From Chitinophagaceae bacterium (GTDB lineage: Bacteria > Bacteroidota > Bacteroidia > Chitinophagales > Chitinophagaceae): DNA of 64,000 nt. Positions 9,354-18,136 of this stretch are shown here, piece by piece. The stretch is from NCBI GenBank assembly GCA_025923075.1, contig JAICGN010000003.1, positions 1 through 64,000 on the forward strand, written 5' to 3'. The position numbers and the translations under genes are program-made. Under the pieces are notes generated by a model that was given only the letters and a program-made list of their open reading frames with translations, ran no database searches and had not been told where the DNA came from. Every line of letters begins with the position of its first letter. Position 1 is the first letter of the stretch.

Positions 9354-12242
9354 TCACCTTATCGCCTCAATGATCGCATCCTGAATTTTACCTCTGACCA
9401 GCAACGATGAAAGCAAAGGATTATTTCTTGTCGGGTTTACCCTGTTAGAAAGGAAAATATAAACAAGATCATATTCCGGATCTACCCAGACACAGGTGCC
9501 GGTAAAACCCGTATGACCGAAAGTTTGTGGTGATGCAAGTAATGCAGGATAAGGTTCTTTGCGAGTTATATTGTCTTTCTCCGGCTTGTCGAAACCCAGT
9601 CCCCTGCGACTGTCCTTGCTATGATACTTTGTAAATAATTTAATTGTCTCCTCCTTTAGAAACCTTTCCCCGTTAAATGTGCCGCCATTTAACAGCATTT
9701 GATAAAGCATGGCCAGATCATACGCGTTGGAAAATAATCCGGCATGACCGGCAACACCACCAAACATGGAAGCTCCTTCATCATGTACATCGCCTTGTAT
9801 CAATTGTTGTCGAAAATGTTTTTCATATTCAGTAGGCACAATCGATCCCTCTTTCCAAAAACGTTCTCTGGGTTTGAACCCCGTCGTTCTCATTCCGATC
9901 CTGTTATAGAAAGTTTTGTGCACATACTGATCAAGTGTCATTCCCGTAAGCTGCTCGACAATTTTTCCAAGGAAAATAAAATCATTGTCACTATAAACAT
10001 AGCGACCTTGTCTACTCAAGGGACTTTGCAAAACTCGTTTTATCATCGTATCCTGCCAGTCATTTCGTATGTAGAGATTTTCTGCAACTCGTATGCTAAA
10101 ACCGGGCTTTGCGGTATCAGAATAAATTTGCGAATTGGGATTGCCGGTCGCCGTATCAATTGTTTCTCTATAAAACGGAATGAAGGGAACAAGCCCTGCC
10201 TCATGAAGCAATATATCTTCTATTTCAAGATCGGCTTTATCAGTGCCTTTTACCCAGGGCAGGTAGTCACCCAGCTTTTTTTTTAAACTGAGCTTGCCTT
10301 CCTCATAAAGCTTCATCACTGACACGGTAGTCGCGGAGATTTTTGTAACCGAAGCCAGATCATAAATGCTTTCAAGTGTAACGGGCTGAGAATTTTCAAA
10401 CGTATAATTACCAAAAGCCTGGTTGTAAATAATTTCCCCGTTTTGTAATGCCATTATTACACAACCCGGAAATGCTTTCTGAGAAATTGCATCGCTAACG
10501 ATTGAATCGATCGTTTGAACCATAAAAGCTCTTCTTTCCAATGGATCGGGTCTTTCAGTAGCTACCACATCAATACCAAAACCAGCAGGATAGCTGCAAA
10601 CCCTTACCGGTAATCTTCCTGATGCTTTGATTTTTCCTTTCAACAGATCAGCAGCTACCTTTCTTGTGACATTATCATCCTGGTAACAGGCAATTAGTGT
10701 ATTAGCCTTACAGAAATTTGAGGAGGCTAAAACATTCCCAAAAACAAGGGTTACACTATTCGCTTTATTGAGTCTGCGCCACAACGAAAGAGACGAATTG
10801 GTAATGCCATAATTGTTTGCAGGTCGGTTGCTGAAATTATGAATGCCAATTACCACTGCATCATACTTATCCATCACCTTTTCAAAAATTTCATCTGCTT
10901 TATCGTCTCCATCTTTCCATGAGAATAAGTAGGAGTCTGTTTTATAAGTGTCACTTAATGCTCTCCCAAAACTATTTATATCAGAATCACCAATGGCTAT
11001 ATAGGCTATCTTGTTATTTTTTTTCAAAGGCACTAAAACATTACCACTTGCCTGTTTCAGGACAGTAATAGTTTCTTTCGCCACTTTCAACCCGATAGCA
11101 TCCGTTTTCGCATTCAGATCACGAAGAAGATTTGTTGTTTCAATTGGTTTTAATTGGTTTAGTCCAAGCTGGTATTTTGCTTTTAAAACTTTTCTCACTT
11201 TTTCATCAATAGCAGCCCAGCTCAATTTATTCCCATCAATCGCTTTTTTTATCGCATCTATGGCATTTCCTACATCTTCAGGAAGACAAAGCATATCGTT
11301 ACCAGCAATCAAAGCCTCAACAGAAATAACTCCGCCCGGGAAATATTTTGCAACACCTTTCATCTCCAATGCATCAGTAAATGTGAGGCCGGTGAATCCA
11401 ATATCATCCCGTAGAACACCTGTGACAGTGTTTTTAGAAATAGAAGATGCACGATGTTCGCCTGCATCAATAGAAGGCACGGAAAGATGCGCCACCATTA
11501 CGCTTCCGATGCCTGCATTTATTAATTCACGAAAAGGTTTTAGCTCATTTGAATCAAGTTCAGCTCTCGTTTTATTTATCACTGGCAGATCAAGATGCGA
11601 GTCCACATCGACATCGCCATGCCCCGGGAAATGCTTGGCACAAGCCATGATACCAGCATCCTGCATTCCTTTCATATACGCAATACCAAACTTTATTACT
11701 TTATCCCTGTCTTCACCAAAAGAACGATAACCGATCACGGGATTGTTTGGATTATTATTGATATCAACGACGGGTGCATAGTTAACATGAATACCAAGCC
11801 GCTTGCATTGTGCACCAACTGCTAATCCCATTTCGTATACCAGGCGCTGATCATCCATGGCGCCAAGTGTAAGCTGGTAAGGAAATTTTGTAACACTATC
11901 GAGACGCATCCCAACACCCCATTCTCCATCGATCGTGATCATCAAGGGAGTTTTTGTCATGTGTTGATAGAAATTCGTGAGATTTGCCTGGCGTATCGGT
12001 CCACCCTGGAAAAAACATAATGCCCCAACATTGTATTGCTGAATATCGCTGGTCACTTTTGCAATATGATCCGGGCCAAGGTTTGAATGAGCTCTTATCA
12101 CCATCAGTTGTGCTATTCTTTGTTCTTTGGATAAAGAATTAAAAACACTGTCCACCCACTGATCAACAGAAAGCCTGCTGCTGTATTGAGAAAAAACAAC
12201 AGAAGAAGCCAGGAGCGACACAATAAACAATATTTTTTTCAT
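9354..12242 (-). CDS. Glycoside hydrolase family 3 / serine beta-lactamase-fold fusion
   Basis: A 962-aa secreted fusion with an N-terminal signal peptide (cleaved near VVFSQ). Residues ~25-360 form a GH3 catalytic domain of the NagZ/beta-N-acetylhexosaminidase type: KHFPGHGDVDVDSH carries the NagZ His/Asp pair, and TDALEM carries the nucleophile Asp. Residues ~390-560 look like the GH3 C-terminal domain. Residues ~580-962 form a class C beta-lactamase/EstB-like domain with SVTK (SxxK), YSD and HTG motifs. NagZ-type enzymes release GlcNAc from muropeptides, so the whole protein is probably a periplasmic peptidoglycan-recycling enzyme. The second domain may be a peptidase or esterase rather than a lactamase. 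Confidence 0.92.
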   Translation of the reverse strand: MKKILFIVSLLASSVVFSQYSSRLSVDQWVDSVFNSLSKEQRIAQLMVIRAHSNLGPDHIAKVTSDIQQYNVGALCFFQGGPIRQANLTNFYQHMTKTPLMITIDGEWGVGMRLDSVTKFPYQLTLGAMDDQRLVYEMGLAVGAQCKRLGIHVNYAPVVDINNNPNNPVIGYRSFGEDRDKVIKFGIAYMKGMQDAGIMACAKHFPGHGDVDVDSHLDLPVINKTRAELDSNELKPFRELINAGIGSVMVAHLSVPSIDAGEHRASSISKNTVTGVLRDDIGFTGLTFTDALEMKGVAKYFPGGVISVEALIAGNDMLCLPEDVGNAIDAIKKAIDGNKLSWAAIDEKVRKVLKAKYQLGLNQLKPIETTNLLRDLNAKTDAIGLKVAKETITVLKQASGNVLVPLKKNNKIAYIAIGDSDINSFGRALSDTYKTDSYLFSWKDGDDKADEIFEKVMDKYDAVVIGIHNFSNRPANNYGITNSSLSLWRRLNKANSVTLVFGNVLASSNFCKANTLIACYQDDNVTRKVAADLLKGKIKASGRLPVRVCSYPAGFGIDVVATERPDPLERRAFMVQTIDSIVSDAISQKAFPGCVIMALQNGEIIYNQAFGNYTFENSQPVTLESIYDLASVTKISATTVSVMKLYEEGKLSLKKKLGDYLPWVKGTDKADLEIEDILLHEAGLVPFIPFYRETIDTATGNPNSQIYSDTAKPGFSIRVAENLYIRNDWQDTMIKRVLQSPLSRQGRYVYSDNDFIFLGKIVEQLTGMTLDQYVHKTFYNRIGMRTTGFKPRERFWKEGSIVPTEYEKHFRQQLIQGDVHDEGASMFGGVAGHAGLFSNAYDLAMLYQMLLNGGTFNGERFLKEETIKLFTKYHSKDSRRGLGFDKPEKDNITRKEPYPALLASPQTFGHTGFTGTCVWVDPEYDLVYIFLSNRVNPTRNNPLLSSLLVRGKIQDAIIEAIR

Positions 12243-14180: not shown

Positions 14181-14256
14181 GAGAGTAAAAGAGAGAAAGA
14201 GACAAAGAGTTGGCTCGGGATCTCTCTCGTACTCATTTTCTCCTTTCGCCTCTTAG
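14177..14256. repeat. CTAAGAG inverted repeat spanning mutL and PBP4 stop codons
   Basis: Left end CTAAGAG (14177-14183) and right end CTCTTAG (14250-14256) are exact reverse complements, joined by purine-rich GAGAGAAAGAG and pyrimidine-rich TCTCCTTTCGCC arms. The TAA of mutL (14178-14180) and the TAA of the convergent PBP4 gene (14255-14253) are both inside the termini. A related element lies at 16921-17098. Confidence 0.75.
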
Positions 14257-15587
14257 TATTTATTTCTGATTCCCTGGATAAATTGTTCCACCGATCTTCT
14301 TACAGCAGTTGATGAAGCCTGGTGGTTGTTGACCAATATAGAAAAGATGAGAAGCTTACCCTTTTTAGTATATAAAAACCCACTCAAAGCAACGACACCA
14401 GAGAGCGTTCCTGTTTTGACAAAAATAAAACTGCTGTCGGCTCTGTAATAGCTGGTGATCGTGCCTTCGCCGCCGGTTGGAAAAATGACTTTTATTCTTT
14501 CCATTCCAAATTCATTTTTCATTTTATTCAGAATAGAAACAAAATCCAGTGGAGTGAATAAATTGTAGCGGCTGAGACCGGAACCATCAGCCCATCTCGG
14601 TCGTTGAGGCAGATCTTTAAAATCTGTTTTTAACAATGTATCAATGATCTTTGTATCATTCATCACACCAAGCTTTTCATTACTCACCATTAATAAACTT
14701 TGTTCTGCAAAAAAATTATCGCTGCGGTGCATCATGGGTTTAAGGAGTGAATCGGTGAGTTGAGAGTGAAAAGTATTAAAATCGTTTTTTTCAACCTTGC
14801 TGACCAATCCTACTGTAAAAGGGATTTCTAAAGTATCTGAAAGAAGTTCGGCCTGAATCGAAGGAATCCAGTTAATAAAAGATTTACCCGTACTGAAGGG
14901 GATTACCTGGTTTTTATTATTGCCGTTATTTATTCTGAAATCGTTTGAATCTATTGCACGGGTAACGCTAAAACCAATGGCATTTGGGGTAGAGGAAACT
15001 CTTATTTGTTTATTAAAAAAGACAGGAACAACTATTACCCTATTATCCTGTAAATAAAAAGTTGCCGTATTCCCGTATATCGGGAAGGGACTCCTCTCGG
15101 CCATATAGGCTGCAGTGTAGTCATTCCACGACCAGCCGCTTCCCCATTTATCCCAAACAATATTGTTGGCAAGTAAAGAGCCGCTTTTGAATTTTTTTAT
15201 GAGTTCCATCGCTCTCGAAGAATTATAATCCGCGTGTAAAAAACTGGGATCACCTGTGGGCAAAATAATAATCTCACTATCATGAACCATATACCTGAAC
15301 CCCACCAAACTATCTCCCAAATATTTCATCGCAGCATAGCAAGTAGGGATCTTTGTATTGCTGGCCGGTACAAAATATTTATCGCCCTGGTAATTGTACC
15401 AGTACTTTCCAGATTCAGTATCATAAATGCTGATGCCTACATGTGCGGTAAGTAATGAACCGTCTTTAATAACCTTCTGTGCTGACTTTGAAATTTTTTG
15501 CTGGATAGAACAAGAAGAAAGCAAGAGACAACAGGCAATTGACAATAAGCAAAACCTGATTCTGTAGCTGAATTGAAAATTGAGCAT
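14253..15587 (-). CDS. dacB: D-alanyl-D-alanine carboxypeptidase/endopeptidase (PBP4 family)
   Basis: A 444-aa class C low-molecular-weight penicillin-binding protein. It trims or cuts D-Ala cross-links in peptidoglycan. Active-site motifs are visible: SNTK (SxxK) near residue 77, SDN (SxN) near 292, and KTGTL (KTG) near 393. The N-terminus is a lipoprotein signal ending LLLSSC, so it should be membrane anchored. The signal-peptide DNA contains TTGCC/TTGTC-type repeats similar to those in gldH. It converges on mutL, sharing the inverted repeat at the stop codons. Confidence 0.9.
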   Translation of the reverse strand: MLNFQFSYRIRFCLLSIACCLLLSSCSIQQKISKSAQKVIKDGSLLTAHVGISIYDTESGKYWYNYQGDKYFVPASNTKIPTCYAAMKYLGDSLVGFRYMVHDSEIIILPTGDPSFLHADYNSSRAMELIKKFKSGSLLANNIVWDKWGSGWSWNDYTAAYMAERSPFPIYGNTATFYLQDNRVIVVPVFFNKQIRVSSTPNAIGFSVTRAIDSNDFRINNGNNKNQVIPFSTGKSFINWIPSIQAELLSDTLEIPFTVGLVSKVEKNDFNTFHSQLTDSLLKPMMHRSDNFFAEQSLLMVSNEKLGVMNDTKIIDTLLKTDFKDLPQRPRWADGSGLSRYNLFTPLDFVSILNKMKNEFGMERIKVIFPTGGEGTITSYYRADSSFIFVKTGTLSGVVALSGFLYTKKGKLLIFSILVNNHQASSTAVRRSVEQFIQGIRNKY

Positions 15588-15767: not shown

Positions 15768-16910
15768 TTAACTTCTCTCCTGCGCTCTCAACCATCTTTC
15801 CGGGATCTCATTGCTGCTTGCCAGCAGGTAATCTTTATAACTACAGGCGATAAAACGTTTATCCGGCAGCTGCATCCACCAGCGACCCGTTTTCTTACTT
15901 TGGATAAAAGTTGTTTCCACTTCCGCAAATGCCATGTGGTATTCATTGAAAGATTCACGTTCATCGATCTTGGCTTCTTTTCTGCCACGGCTCCGACCAT
16001 CTAATAAATACCAAAGCATCTGGCTGATCTGTTTAGCTGTAAGATCATGCTGGTCCTTATCCGGATCATAACCATAAATACCGATTGTACTTACATTCGG
16101 ACTCATACCGGCATAACGCATCAGCACGCAGCTTTCTTCCCCATTAAAACCATTAGGCGAACCGGTAGTATTGGCCGGGGCATATGCGTAAGCCAGCGCA
16201 GAAATATCAAAACTGAATAACTGTGAATTGCGCAGCACAGGTTCCATTTCATCAATATTCTCTTTTACATGACCAACACGGAAACAATCAAAGCGCAGTT
16301 TATCCATTGTTTCCAGCATTCGGGGATGAACAAAATAACTTTGGAAACCGATATGATTATAATGACGAACATAATTCGGTTCGCCGGTCAGCATTTCCAT
16401 TAGAAAATTATCACATCGAAAATCAGAATCAAGATTGAGATCGATCAGCGCATCTACATTAGTTACTTCAATAATGGATTTGTTTTGCTCGTATGCATAA
16501 TACTGGGCAAGTGTAAGATCATGTGATCCGCCAAGAATAATCACAGTCTTTTTCTCATTGATCAATTCATTGATAACAGTTCGTAACGCAGCATAAGTAT
16601 CCACCAGACCCGCACCCTTGCGAAGATTGCCAAGATCAGCCAACCGAAGATCCTGGTGCCAAAAAAATAATTGATAAAACTGGCGGCGGATCGCATCAGG
16701 TCCCGCACTGTAAGCCAGGTGATGACCATTCCCTCTTTGCTCACCACAACCGATAAAGACAAGATCGGCATCGTCAACATCCGGAAAATTTTCTTCGTCA
16801 TGTACTTTTATATTGGAACCAATTGTGCCTTCCTTGTAACCCTGGTCAAAACTCAGTTCAGCCTTGCTTATTGGCGAAAGAAAGTCTGCAATATTTAGAA
16901 AATCTGACAT
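15768..16910 (-). CDS. Arginase/formimidoylglutamase-fold protein with altered metal site
   Basis: A 380-aa ureohydrolase-fold protein, of the kind usually annotated as formimidoylglutamase in Bacteroidota. The fold motifs are present but changed. GGSHDL keeps His130. The DAHxD motif reads DALID (D153, L155, D157). The SFDxDxxDP motif reads SFDISALAY (D235, S237). By alignment to arginase, the four ligands of metal A are kept, while the two ligands unique to metal B (His126 and Asp234 in rat arginase) are Leu and Ser. Hydrolysis of guanidino or formimino groups is therefore uncertain. No hut genes are adjacent. The function could be a single-metal or non-catalytic one. Confidence 0.8.
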   Translation of the reverse strand: MSDFLNIADFLSPISKAELSFDQGYKEGTIGSNIKVHDEENFPDVDDADLVFIGCGEQRGNGHHLAYSAGPDAIRRQFYQLFFWHQDLRLADLGNLRKGAGLVDTYAALRTVINELINEKKTVIILGGSHDLTLAQYYAYEQNKSIIEVTNVDALIDLNLDSDFRCDNFLMEMLTGEPNYVRHYNHIGFQSYFVHPRMLETMDKLRFDCFRVGHVKENIDEMEPVLRNSQLFSFDISALAYAYAPANTTGSPNGFNGEESCVLMRYAGMSPNVSTIGIYGYDPDKDQHDLTAKQISQMLWYLLDGRSRGRKEAKIDERESFNEYHMAFAEVETTFIQSKKTGRWWMQLPDKRFIACSYKDYLLASSNEIPERWLRAQERS

Positions 16911-16920
16911 AAGTGCAAGT

Positions 16921-17098
16921 TAAGCTAAGAGAATAAAAGAGAGAAGGAGAAAAAGAGCTAATGCGCTGCTGTTGAAAAGTTGTAAATGGCCGGGAACTAC
17001 TCTCCTTACCTCTTTTTTCCTTTGCCTCTTAGCTTATCTTTTTATCCTTCTCTCTTCCTTTCTTCTCTTTTTCTCCTTAGTGTCTTAGCTTATCTTTG
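16921..17098. repeat. CTAAGAG-type inverted repeat with duplicated right arm
   Basis: TAAGCTAAGAG (16921-16931) is the exact reverse complement of CTCTTAGCTTA (17026-17036). A second right arm ends TCTTAGCTTATCTTTG at 17083-17098. The arms are purine-rich on the left and pyrimidine-rich on the right, as in the 14177-14256 element. The second right arm contains the pheS -7 box. Confidence 0.7.
17091..17098 (+). promoter_or_regulatory. -7 promoter box of pheS within a repeat arm
   Basis: TATCTTTG is a perfect TAnnTTTG match ending six bases before the pheS ATG at 17105. It is the end of the repeat arm CTTAGCTTATCTTTG, and the upstream copy at 17029-17042 has CTTAGCTTATCTTT. Confidence 0.5.
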
Positions 17099-17104
17099 CC
17101 GGCT

Positions 17105-18136
17105 ATGGAAGAATTGCTGCAACAAATAGAAAATTACAAATCAGAGATCGAGACTTACGCCGCAGCTGATGAAAAAGCAGTGGAGGAATTTCGCATCAAA
17201 TGGCTTGGCACAAAAGGATTGGTGAAACACCTGATGGGCGAAATGAAGAATGTGCCAAACGAAAGGAAGAAAGAATTCGGACAGATATTAAATGAGTTCA
17301 AGCAATTCACTGAAGCAAAATATGAAGAGCTCAAAACAGCACTGAACTCTGAACTCAGAACGAAGAGCTCCGAACTTGACCTGACTCTTCCTGGAGATGA
17401 TATACCTGTCGGCACCCGTCACCCGATCAGTTTAATGACGAATCGTATCATTTCCATTTTTCAGCGTCTCGGTTTTGCAGTTGCTGAAGGGCCCGAGATC
17501 GAGGACGATTGGCACAACTTTACCGCATTGAATCTTCCCGAGCATCACCCGGCCAGAGATATGCAGGATACGTTTTATGTACAGCAAAACCCTGACTGGC
17601 TACTTCGTACGCATACCAGTAATATCCAGATCCGTGAAATGCAGAAAGGCAAATTGCCAATCCGCATCATTTGCCCCGGTCGTGTGTATAGAAATGAAAC
17701 AGTGAGTGCAAGAAGTCATTGCTTTTTTCACCAGGTGGAAGCTTTATATATTGATGAAAATGTTTCTTTTGCCGATTTGAAACAAACGCTTTATTTTTTT
17801 GCTAAAGAAATGTATGGAACCGATGTAAAGATCTGTTTCCGTCCTTCTTATTTTCCCTTCACTGAGCCAAGTGCCGAAATGGACATCAGCTGTATGCTTT
17901 GCAAAGGTGTCGGTTGCAATGTGTGTAAGAAAACCGGATGGCTTGAAATTCTTGGCAGCGGTATGGTGCATCCGAATGTTTTATCCAACTGCGGCATCGA
18001 TCCTAACAAATACACTGGCTTTGCATTCGGGATGGGTATCGAAAGGCCCGCATTACTAAAATACGGCATCAATGATATTCGACTCTTCAGCGATAATGAT
18101 GTAAGGTTTTTGAAACAGTTTACGAGTGCAGTTTAG
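17105..18136 (+). CDS. pheS: Phenylalanine-tRNA ligase alpha subunit
   Basis: Catalytic subunit of the (alpha-beta)2 enzyme that charges tRNA-Phe. The N-terminal coiled coil (1-85) binds tRNA. The class II core has motif 2 GRVYRNETVSARSHCFFHQ and motif 3 FGMGIERPALLKYGI. Length is 343 aa. The ATG at 17105 is preferred over a TTG three codons upstream, because that TTG is part of the -7 box. The linker at about residues 79-92 is encoded by GAACTC-type repeats (17340-17378). pheT is not in the window, so the two subunits are encoded apart. Confidence 0.96.
   Translation: MEELLQQIENYKSEIETYAAADEKAVEEFRIKWLGTKGLVKHLMGEMKNVPNERKKEFGQILNEFKQFTEAKYEELKTALNSELRTKSSELDLTLPGDDIPVGTRHPISLMTNRIISIFQRLGFAVAEGPEIEDDWHNFTALNLPEHHPARDMQDTFYVQQNPDWLLRTHTSNIQIREMQKGKLPIRIICPGRVYRNETVSARSHCFFHQVEALYIDENVSFADLKQTLYFFAKEMYGTDVKICFRPSYFPFTEPSAEMDISCMLCKGVGCNVCKKTGWLEILGSGMVHPNVLSNCGIDPNKYTGFAFGMGIERPALLKYGINDIRLFSDNDVRFLKQFTSAV

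Follow-up and report, generated by a model that had tools for sequence, protein, structure and literature searches.

What does a protein with an arginase fold do when the ligands of one of the two arginase metals are missing? This question is raised by a gene of a Chitinophagaceae bacterium, located in the 64,000-nucleotide stretch of DNA that we analysed as a whole (the window). The original prediction was that the product of this gene has an arginase fold, that it keeps the ligands of metal A and has lost exactly the two that are specific to metal B, and that it could be a mononuclear enzyme or have taken on a new role. The gene, the codons of the six ligand positions and the neighbouring genes are listed in Table 1.

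Table 1. Features of the arginase-fold gene and its neighbourhood in the window
Feature	Coordinates	Strand	Remarks
Peptidase_S13 (PBP4/DacB-like) gene	14253..15587	minus	downstream, same strand as the arginase-fold gene; frequent Chitinophagaceae neighbour
Gene of arginase-fold protein without metal-B-only ligands	15768..16910	minus	380 aa; ORF and translation, Pfam Arginase, AlphaFold2 model, PDB fold search
C-terminal extension, residues 307-380	15771..15992	minus	past the Pfam Arginase domain (match stops at residue 302); conservation; model
S237 codon	16200..16202	minus	metal-B Asp position; Asp in 3/193, never with H155
D235 codon	16206..16208	minus	bridging Asp position; 97% conserved
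D157 codon	16440..16442	minus	metal-A Asp position; Asn in ~9%
L155 codon	16446..16448	minus	position of the metal-B His; unconstrained, with 16 kinds of residue
D153 codon	16452..16454	minus	bridging Asp position; 97% conserved
H130 codon	16521..16523	minus	position of the metal-A His; one third of the relatives have Gln
pheS	17096..18136	plus	divergently oriented; conserved next to the gene in many Chitinophagaceae; listed for context

Fold and metal-ligand positions of the window protein

The window protein matches Pfam Arginase (PF00491) with E=4.1e-19 and 69.6 bits, against a cut-off of 22. Its AlphaFold2 model has a pLDDT of 90 and a pTM of 0.91, and the top matches in the PDB fold search were metformin hydrolases, agmatinases and the formimidoylglutamases of B. 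subtilis and T. cruzi, with E-values reaching 1e-17 and TM-scores of up to 0.84 when normalised to 4mxr. By Pfam and fold search alike, the protein is a member of the arginase/ureohydrolase fold family, as the original prediction had it. Three diverged relatives (in the loci L070, L080 and L076) score under the Pfam report threshold. Strands and helices are predicted in the C-terminal extension of the model, and no signal peptide was evident on inspection of the window protein by eye.

The metal-A and metal-B ligand positions of arginase were matched by alignment to canonical relatives. The host genome encodes three canonical members of the arginase family, all of which read H-D-H-D-D-D at the six positions, the pattern of a binuclear Mn/Ni ureohydrolase, whereas the window protein reads H-D-L-D-D-S. 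Read directly and in this alignment, H130, D153, D157 and D235 stand where arginase has its metal-A ligands, while the two positions that belong to metal B only are taken by L155 and S237, so that this part of the prediction was correct residue by residue. Shifted residues that might substitute for the lost metal-B ligands are not evident in the aligned motifs. The position of the substrate-binding Glu of arginase (E277) is Gly in the window protein and in 113/193 members of its family, and no consistent proton-shuttle His was found at the corresponding column of the 193 members, whichever of the three canonical proteins was used to place it.

Distribution and gene neighbourhood

The arginase-fold gene is present in all 61 sampled genomes of the window's family and in 279 of the 296 genomes sampled from the class; the nearest named organisms with relatives are Terrimonas and other Chitinophagaceae. 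That the gene is decaying is ruled out by its open frame in each of the 61 family genomes and by the many near-invariant residues of its product.

In the window, the gene is placed between the downstream Peptidase_S13 gene and the divergent pheS, and this order recurs in many Chitinophagaceae. The window also encodes, at 9354-12242 on the minus strand, a 962-residue protein that combines a glycosyl hydrolase family 3 domain with a beta-lactamase-type (serine hydrolase) domain, and a gene of this type is likewise found near the arginase-fold gene in many Chitinophagaceae. No genes of the type IX secretion system (T9SS), which is encoded together with the gliding machinery, were found near the window gene in its own genome or family, and GldM is encoded on another contig.

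Many families outside the Chitinophagaceae have the genes on one strand in the order topA, arginase-fold gene, (porP), gldK, gldL, gldM and gldN, so that the gene is encoded with T9SS genes in diverse lineages, though not in the window's own family. The names of the T9SS genes were assigned by NCBIfam on representative loci, and the other loci were labelled by BLAST similarity to those. In lists made up of the best-scoring matches rather than a random draw, the start of GldM lies 3.3-6.3 kb from the arginase-fold gene in 45/77 genomes and 18/30 families. In most loci topA is directly upstream of the arginase-fold gene, and the gap is often shorter than ~50 bp or replaced by an overlap. A second setting is seen in L070 and L080, where the gene occurs with murF, gldJ, porP, porU and porV, and in L077, where the same neighbours except porP are found; all three loci have no topA upstream, and an OmpA-family gene is located on the opposite side of their short arginase-fold gene. 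In L214 the gene is more loosely near gldJ and porP, also with no topA upstream, and L202 and L075 have T9SS neighbours with topA not directly upstream. The existence of two different T9SS settings makes a chance neighbourhood less likely. The pair of topA and the arginase-fold gene is found without adjacent T9SS genes in L069, L215 and L218. As for the spacing within the pair, the two genes overlap or are a few bases apart in L066, L062, L196, L211 and other loci.

Of the genomes in the class sample, 277 carry the arginase-fold gene together with GldM, 12 have GldM only, 2 have the gene only and 5 have neither; the corresponding numbers for GldJ are 275, 6, 4 and 11. The raw odds ratios of co-occurrence (58 with GldM and 126 with GldJ) are strongly confounded by kinship and overstate the association, because the presence or absence of the gene accounts for about two changes on the GldM tree. 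In the phylum sample, strong matches (>200 bits) were obtained in 45 genomes, and exactly these 45 carry GldM; weaker matches elsewhere (up to 150 bits) end at the arginase domain and resemble canonical relatives. Members of the class without T9SS are few or absent in the two samples, which leaves a thin control group. The arginase-fold gene is missing from two clades that bear T9SS and is therefore not required for T9SS everywhere. One of these clades is also without GldJ and the other keeps a GldJ-like protein; G190, G249 and G584 (family code f10; loci L238-L240) encode GldK, GldL, GldM and a GldJ-like protein and have no arginase-fold gene. We detected no copy of the gene, not even a diverged one, at the gldKLMN loci of the two clades. 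Genome G523 (family code f3) keeps the gene, and GldM, GldJ and GldB were not detected in it, so either the gene can outlive T9SS or this genome is incomplete.

The topA/gldKLMN order in many families, the second setting with gldJ, porU and porV, and the match with GldM across the phylum sample point to T9SS. The best reading of the protein, to which we give even chances, is a cytoplasmic arginase-fold pseudoenzyme that serves T9SS/gliding. Several observations argue against the T9SS part of this reading, namely the place of the gene beside dacB and pheS in the window's family, with GldM on another contig, the two T9SS-bearing clades that lack the gene, the retention of the gene in G523, and the strong confounding of the co-occurrence by descent. 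It is rather unlikely that the protein is instead a pseudoenzyme or regulator linked to growth (to topA, pheS and the cell-wall genes dacB/murF) and that the T9SS genes are mere neighbours in many lineages. The overlap of topA and the arginase-fold gene, or the gap of a few bases between them, suggests translational coupling with DNA topoisomerase I, and since the pair also occurs without T9SS genes (L069, L215 and L218), topA could be the real partner; the dacB/pheS neighbours in Chitinophagaceae and the case of G523 fit such a link to growth as well. However, topA and pheS are near-universal in bacteria, whereas in the phylum sample we found this family in no class other than the one that bears T9SS, and the five loci L070, L077, L080, L202 and L075 combine T9SS neighbours with a topA that is not directly upstream.

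Variation of the metal site and conservation elsewhere

A survey of the six positions across homologues had been put forward together with the prediction of a complementary, non-random loss. We ran it on 193 distinct relatives, of which 188 could be read at each of the six sites. Not one of these 188 has both H155 and D237, and 179 have neither, so that in the aligned sequences the loss of the metal-B ligands is family-wide. The full metal-A set without either metal-B ligand was found in 104/188 relatives, and when Gln or Asn was permitted at position 130, the metal-A set was found in 167/188. The survey thus upheld the complementary character of the loss, as the metal-B pair is never complete, but metal A turned out not to be strictly kept. 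Few positions of the protein vary more than 155 (entropy rank 348/380, with 16 different residues), whereas positions 153 and 235 rank 23 and 29, with D153 and D235 kept in 97% of the relatives. Since position 155 is free to vary and positions 153, 157 and 235 are not, something selects for acidic residues.

The departures from the metal-A set concern mainly H130 and D157, both of which vary in the family. Across the class, 60% of the members have His at position 130 and 33% have Gln, and on a quick tree, built without column 130, we counted at least 13 H/Q/N changes at position 130 and at least 14 D/N changes at position 157. In the window's own family (Chitinophagaceae, 110 members) H130 is present in 106/110 and D157 in 99/110, and D153 and D235 are always present where readable. 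The diverged members in L069, L081 and L076 have lost D153, D157 and/or D235; such losses were seen in two groups other than the window's family.

These numbers bear on the first of the two explanations offered originally, by which the protein would be a mononuclear metalloenzyme, or a metal-dependent binder, that uses the metal-A site (H130, D153, D157 and D235) alone. The retention of the site in the window's family and, with Gln/Asn permitted at 130, in most of the 188 relatives argues for it and against a metal-free protein, as does the contrast between the free variation of position 155 and the constraint on 153, 157 and 235. Exchanges of a His ligand for Gln or Asn, or of an Asp ligand for Asn, normally weaken or abolish metal binding, and the many such changes at positions 130 and 157 therefore speak against this explanation; so do the losses of D153, D157 and/or D235 in diverged members, the lack of a consistent proton-shuttle His, the absence of E277 from the window protein, and neighbours that suggest no substrate pathway. 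We consider a protein working through metal A unlikely, although a single metal may be bound in the window's own lineage. The alternative half of the original explanation, a new role, fits the T9SS context of the relatives.

The strongest conservation in the 193 relatives falls on residues outside the metal motifs. Near-invariant are Q190, E223, P224, R227, W300, W344 and C356, with a motif E223-P-x-x-R227; G254 and F335 are also among the most conserved residues, and the C-terminal extension has near-invariant F335, W344, W345, C356, D360 and Y361. Shortened family members of 277-335 residues are encoded in L070 (9451-10284), L080 (8996-9832) and L077 (8652-9659). In all three, most of the N-terminal region with the metal motifs is gone and the C-terminal half is kept, and the predicted structure of the short form from L070 is still arginase-like, with modest scores. 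Judged from these patterns of conservation, the fold looks as if it were kept for binding and not for binuclear hydrolysis.

Binding could in principle be directed at another member of the same family. The protein would then resemble MetCb of metformin hydrolase, which contains no metal and activates MetCa, and would do the same for a canonical partner from the arginase family. This is improbable: the fold search ranks chains of metformin hydrolase first, MetCb binds its active cognate without carrying metal itself (PMC11271267) and the window's genome encodes three canonical relatives, but in no neighbourhood that we read is a canonical partner adjacent to the gene, and in 3 of 32 host genomes (G138, G178 and G548) a Pfam search found no second arginase-family gene. 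In the window's own genome, a partner could still be encoded at a distance from the gene.

The doubt that had been cast on the common label formimidoylglutamase proved to be justified. The best sub-threshold NCBIfam match of the window protein is hutG (TIGR01227; E=2.3e-21), with 76.3 bits against an equivalog cut-off of 229.15; agmatinase (TIGR01230; 43.1 bits against 174.3) and arginase RocF (TIGR01229; 16.9 bits against 227.6) also stay below their cut-offs. No hut genes were found beside the window gene, whose neighbours are dacB and pheS. The three further arginase-family genes of the host genome each have all six ligands, and one of them adjoins ftcD, identified from its sequence (L005 6839-8002 and 8306-9958, genome contig C10); by its sequence and position this gene is the likely candidate for the host's formimidoylglutamase. 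That the window gene is the ordinary formimidoylglutamase of histidine breakdown is hardly credible and was rejected, because the hutG score, the metal B that is never complete in relatives, the lack of adjacent hut genes and the separate six-ligand gene beside ftcD outweigh the hutG match and the presence of formimidoylglutamases among the nearest sequences and folds.

Proposed role and comparison with known systems

The reading of the protein as a pseudoenzyme that serves T9SS/gliding is consistent with the absence of a complete metal-B pair from all 188 relatives, the exchange of H130 and D157 for Gln/Asn, the Gly at the E277 position of most members, the diverged members that keep their C-terminal half without most of the metal motif, the near-invariant residues outside the metal motifs, and the precedent of an arginase-family pseudoenzyme (PMC11271267). 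From these data we infer the loss of hydrolase activity, the cytoplasmic location, a physical link to T9SS/gliding and any particular partner. In this reading, arginase-fold pseudoenzymes would form a family that extends across the class, and the window gene would represent it in the Chitinophagaceae. The ancestor of the family may have been a ureohydrolase of the formimidoylglutamase/agmatinase type; the descendants would have lost the two metal-B-only ligands, carry a C-terminal extension, and have been retained because they are cytoplasmic partners of the T9SS/gliding machinery, in a structural or regulatory capacity, and no longer for binuclear hydrolysis. Such a partner might contribute to the assembly, stability or regulation of the T9SS/gliding core, and its place may be where the GldL/GldM motor faces the cytoplasm. 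A possible site of action is the assembly of the GldKLMN core or the cytoplasmic domain of the motor protein GldL, which comprises residues 59-189 in F. johnsoniae (PMC8986121). The acidic residues D131, D153, D157 and D235 may have been kept for a hydrogen-bond network in the pocket, possibly one that includes a ligand or a single loosely bound cation. More specifically, we tentatively propose, at less than even chances, that the protein is an unrecognised, nearly class-wide T9SS/gliding component, which was recruited from a metabolic hydrolase and acts on the GldKLMN motor complex from the cytoplasm, as an accessory protein or a regulator.

In the literature that we searched, this protein was not found as a named T9SS component, and we found no report that joins a formimidoylglutamase or arginase with gldK and no mention of Fjoh_1852, which may be the F. 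johnsoniae homologue. Nor did this limited search, which is weak evidence, return a report of a class-wide arginase-fold family tied to T9SS by gene order. New here are the presence of the gene in nearly all sampled genomes of family and class and its place in the gene order of T9SS/gliding operons. Pseudoenzymes of the arginase family are not new as a kind, as shown by MetCb (PMC11271267) and by a T. brucei protein to which both PMC11271267 and PMC5602898 refer.

Histone deacetylases have a fold related to that of arginase and bind only one metal, in the equivalent of the metal-B site. The window family shares with them the fold and a single set of metal-site residues, but the retained residues are the opposite ones, those of metal A; if the metal-A explanation were true after all, this would be an arginase-fold protein that keeps the metal site opposite to that of the histone deacetylases. 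HutG (TIGR01227; PDB 3m1r from B. subtilis and 4mxr from T. cruzi) has the same fold and is the closest subfamily in sequence, and the arginase-fold gene is liable to be taken for such an enzyme of histidine degradation. Unlike HutG, the window protein lacks both metal-B-only ligands, scores far under the hutG cut-off, has an additional conserved C-terminal extension and has no hut neighbours. MetCb, the metal-free subunit of metformin hydrolase, binds its active cognate MetCa (PMC11271267; PDB 8x3g, 8snf and 8ryi) and is thus an arginase-fold pseudoenzyme acting as a protein partner and not as a catalyst, which is demonstrated for MetCb and presumed for the window family; unlike MetCb, this family has no adjacent canonical partner, and some hosts have no other arginase-family gene. 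The arginase-like protein TbARG of T. brucei (Hai et al. 2015), as it is cited in PMC11271267 and PMC5602898, is a pseudoenzyme of the arginase family without the binuclear centre, and in those citations its function is given as unknown. Going by the same citations, the window family differs from TbARG in that it keeps most metal-A residues and always loses only the metal-B-specific pair, and it belongs to another lineage. In many lineages the arginase-fold gene is clustered with the T9SS/gliding core (GldK-GldL-GldM-GldN, PorP/SprF, GldJ, PorU and PorV) and occurs in the same hosts; it differs from this core in its absence from two T9SS-bearing clades, and the f10 clade offers natural test cases for the dispensability of the gene in T9SS. 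If the T9SS reading is true, a gene present in nearly every sampled genome of a large class of Bacteroidota has been missed as a partner of the T9SS/gliding motor, and it clearly exemplifies how an enzyme of metabolism can become part of a machine.
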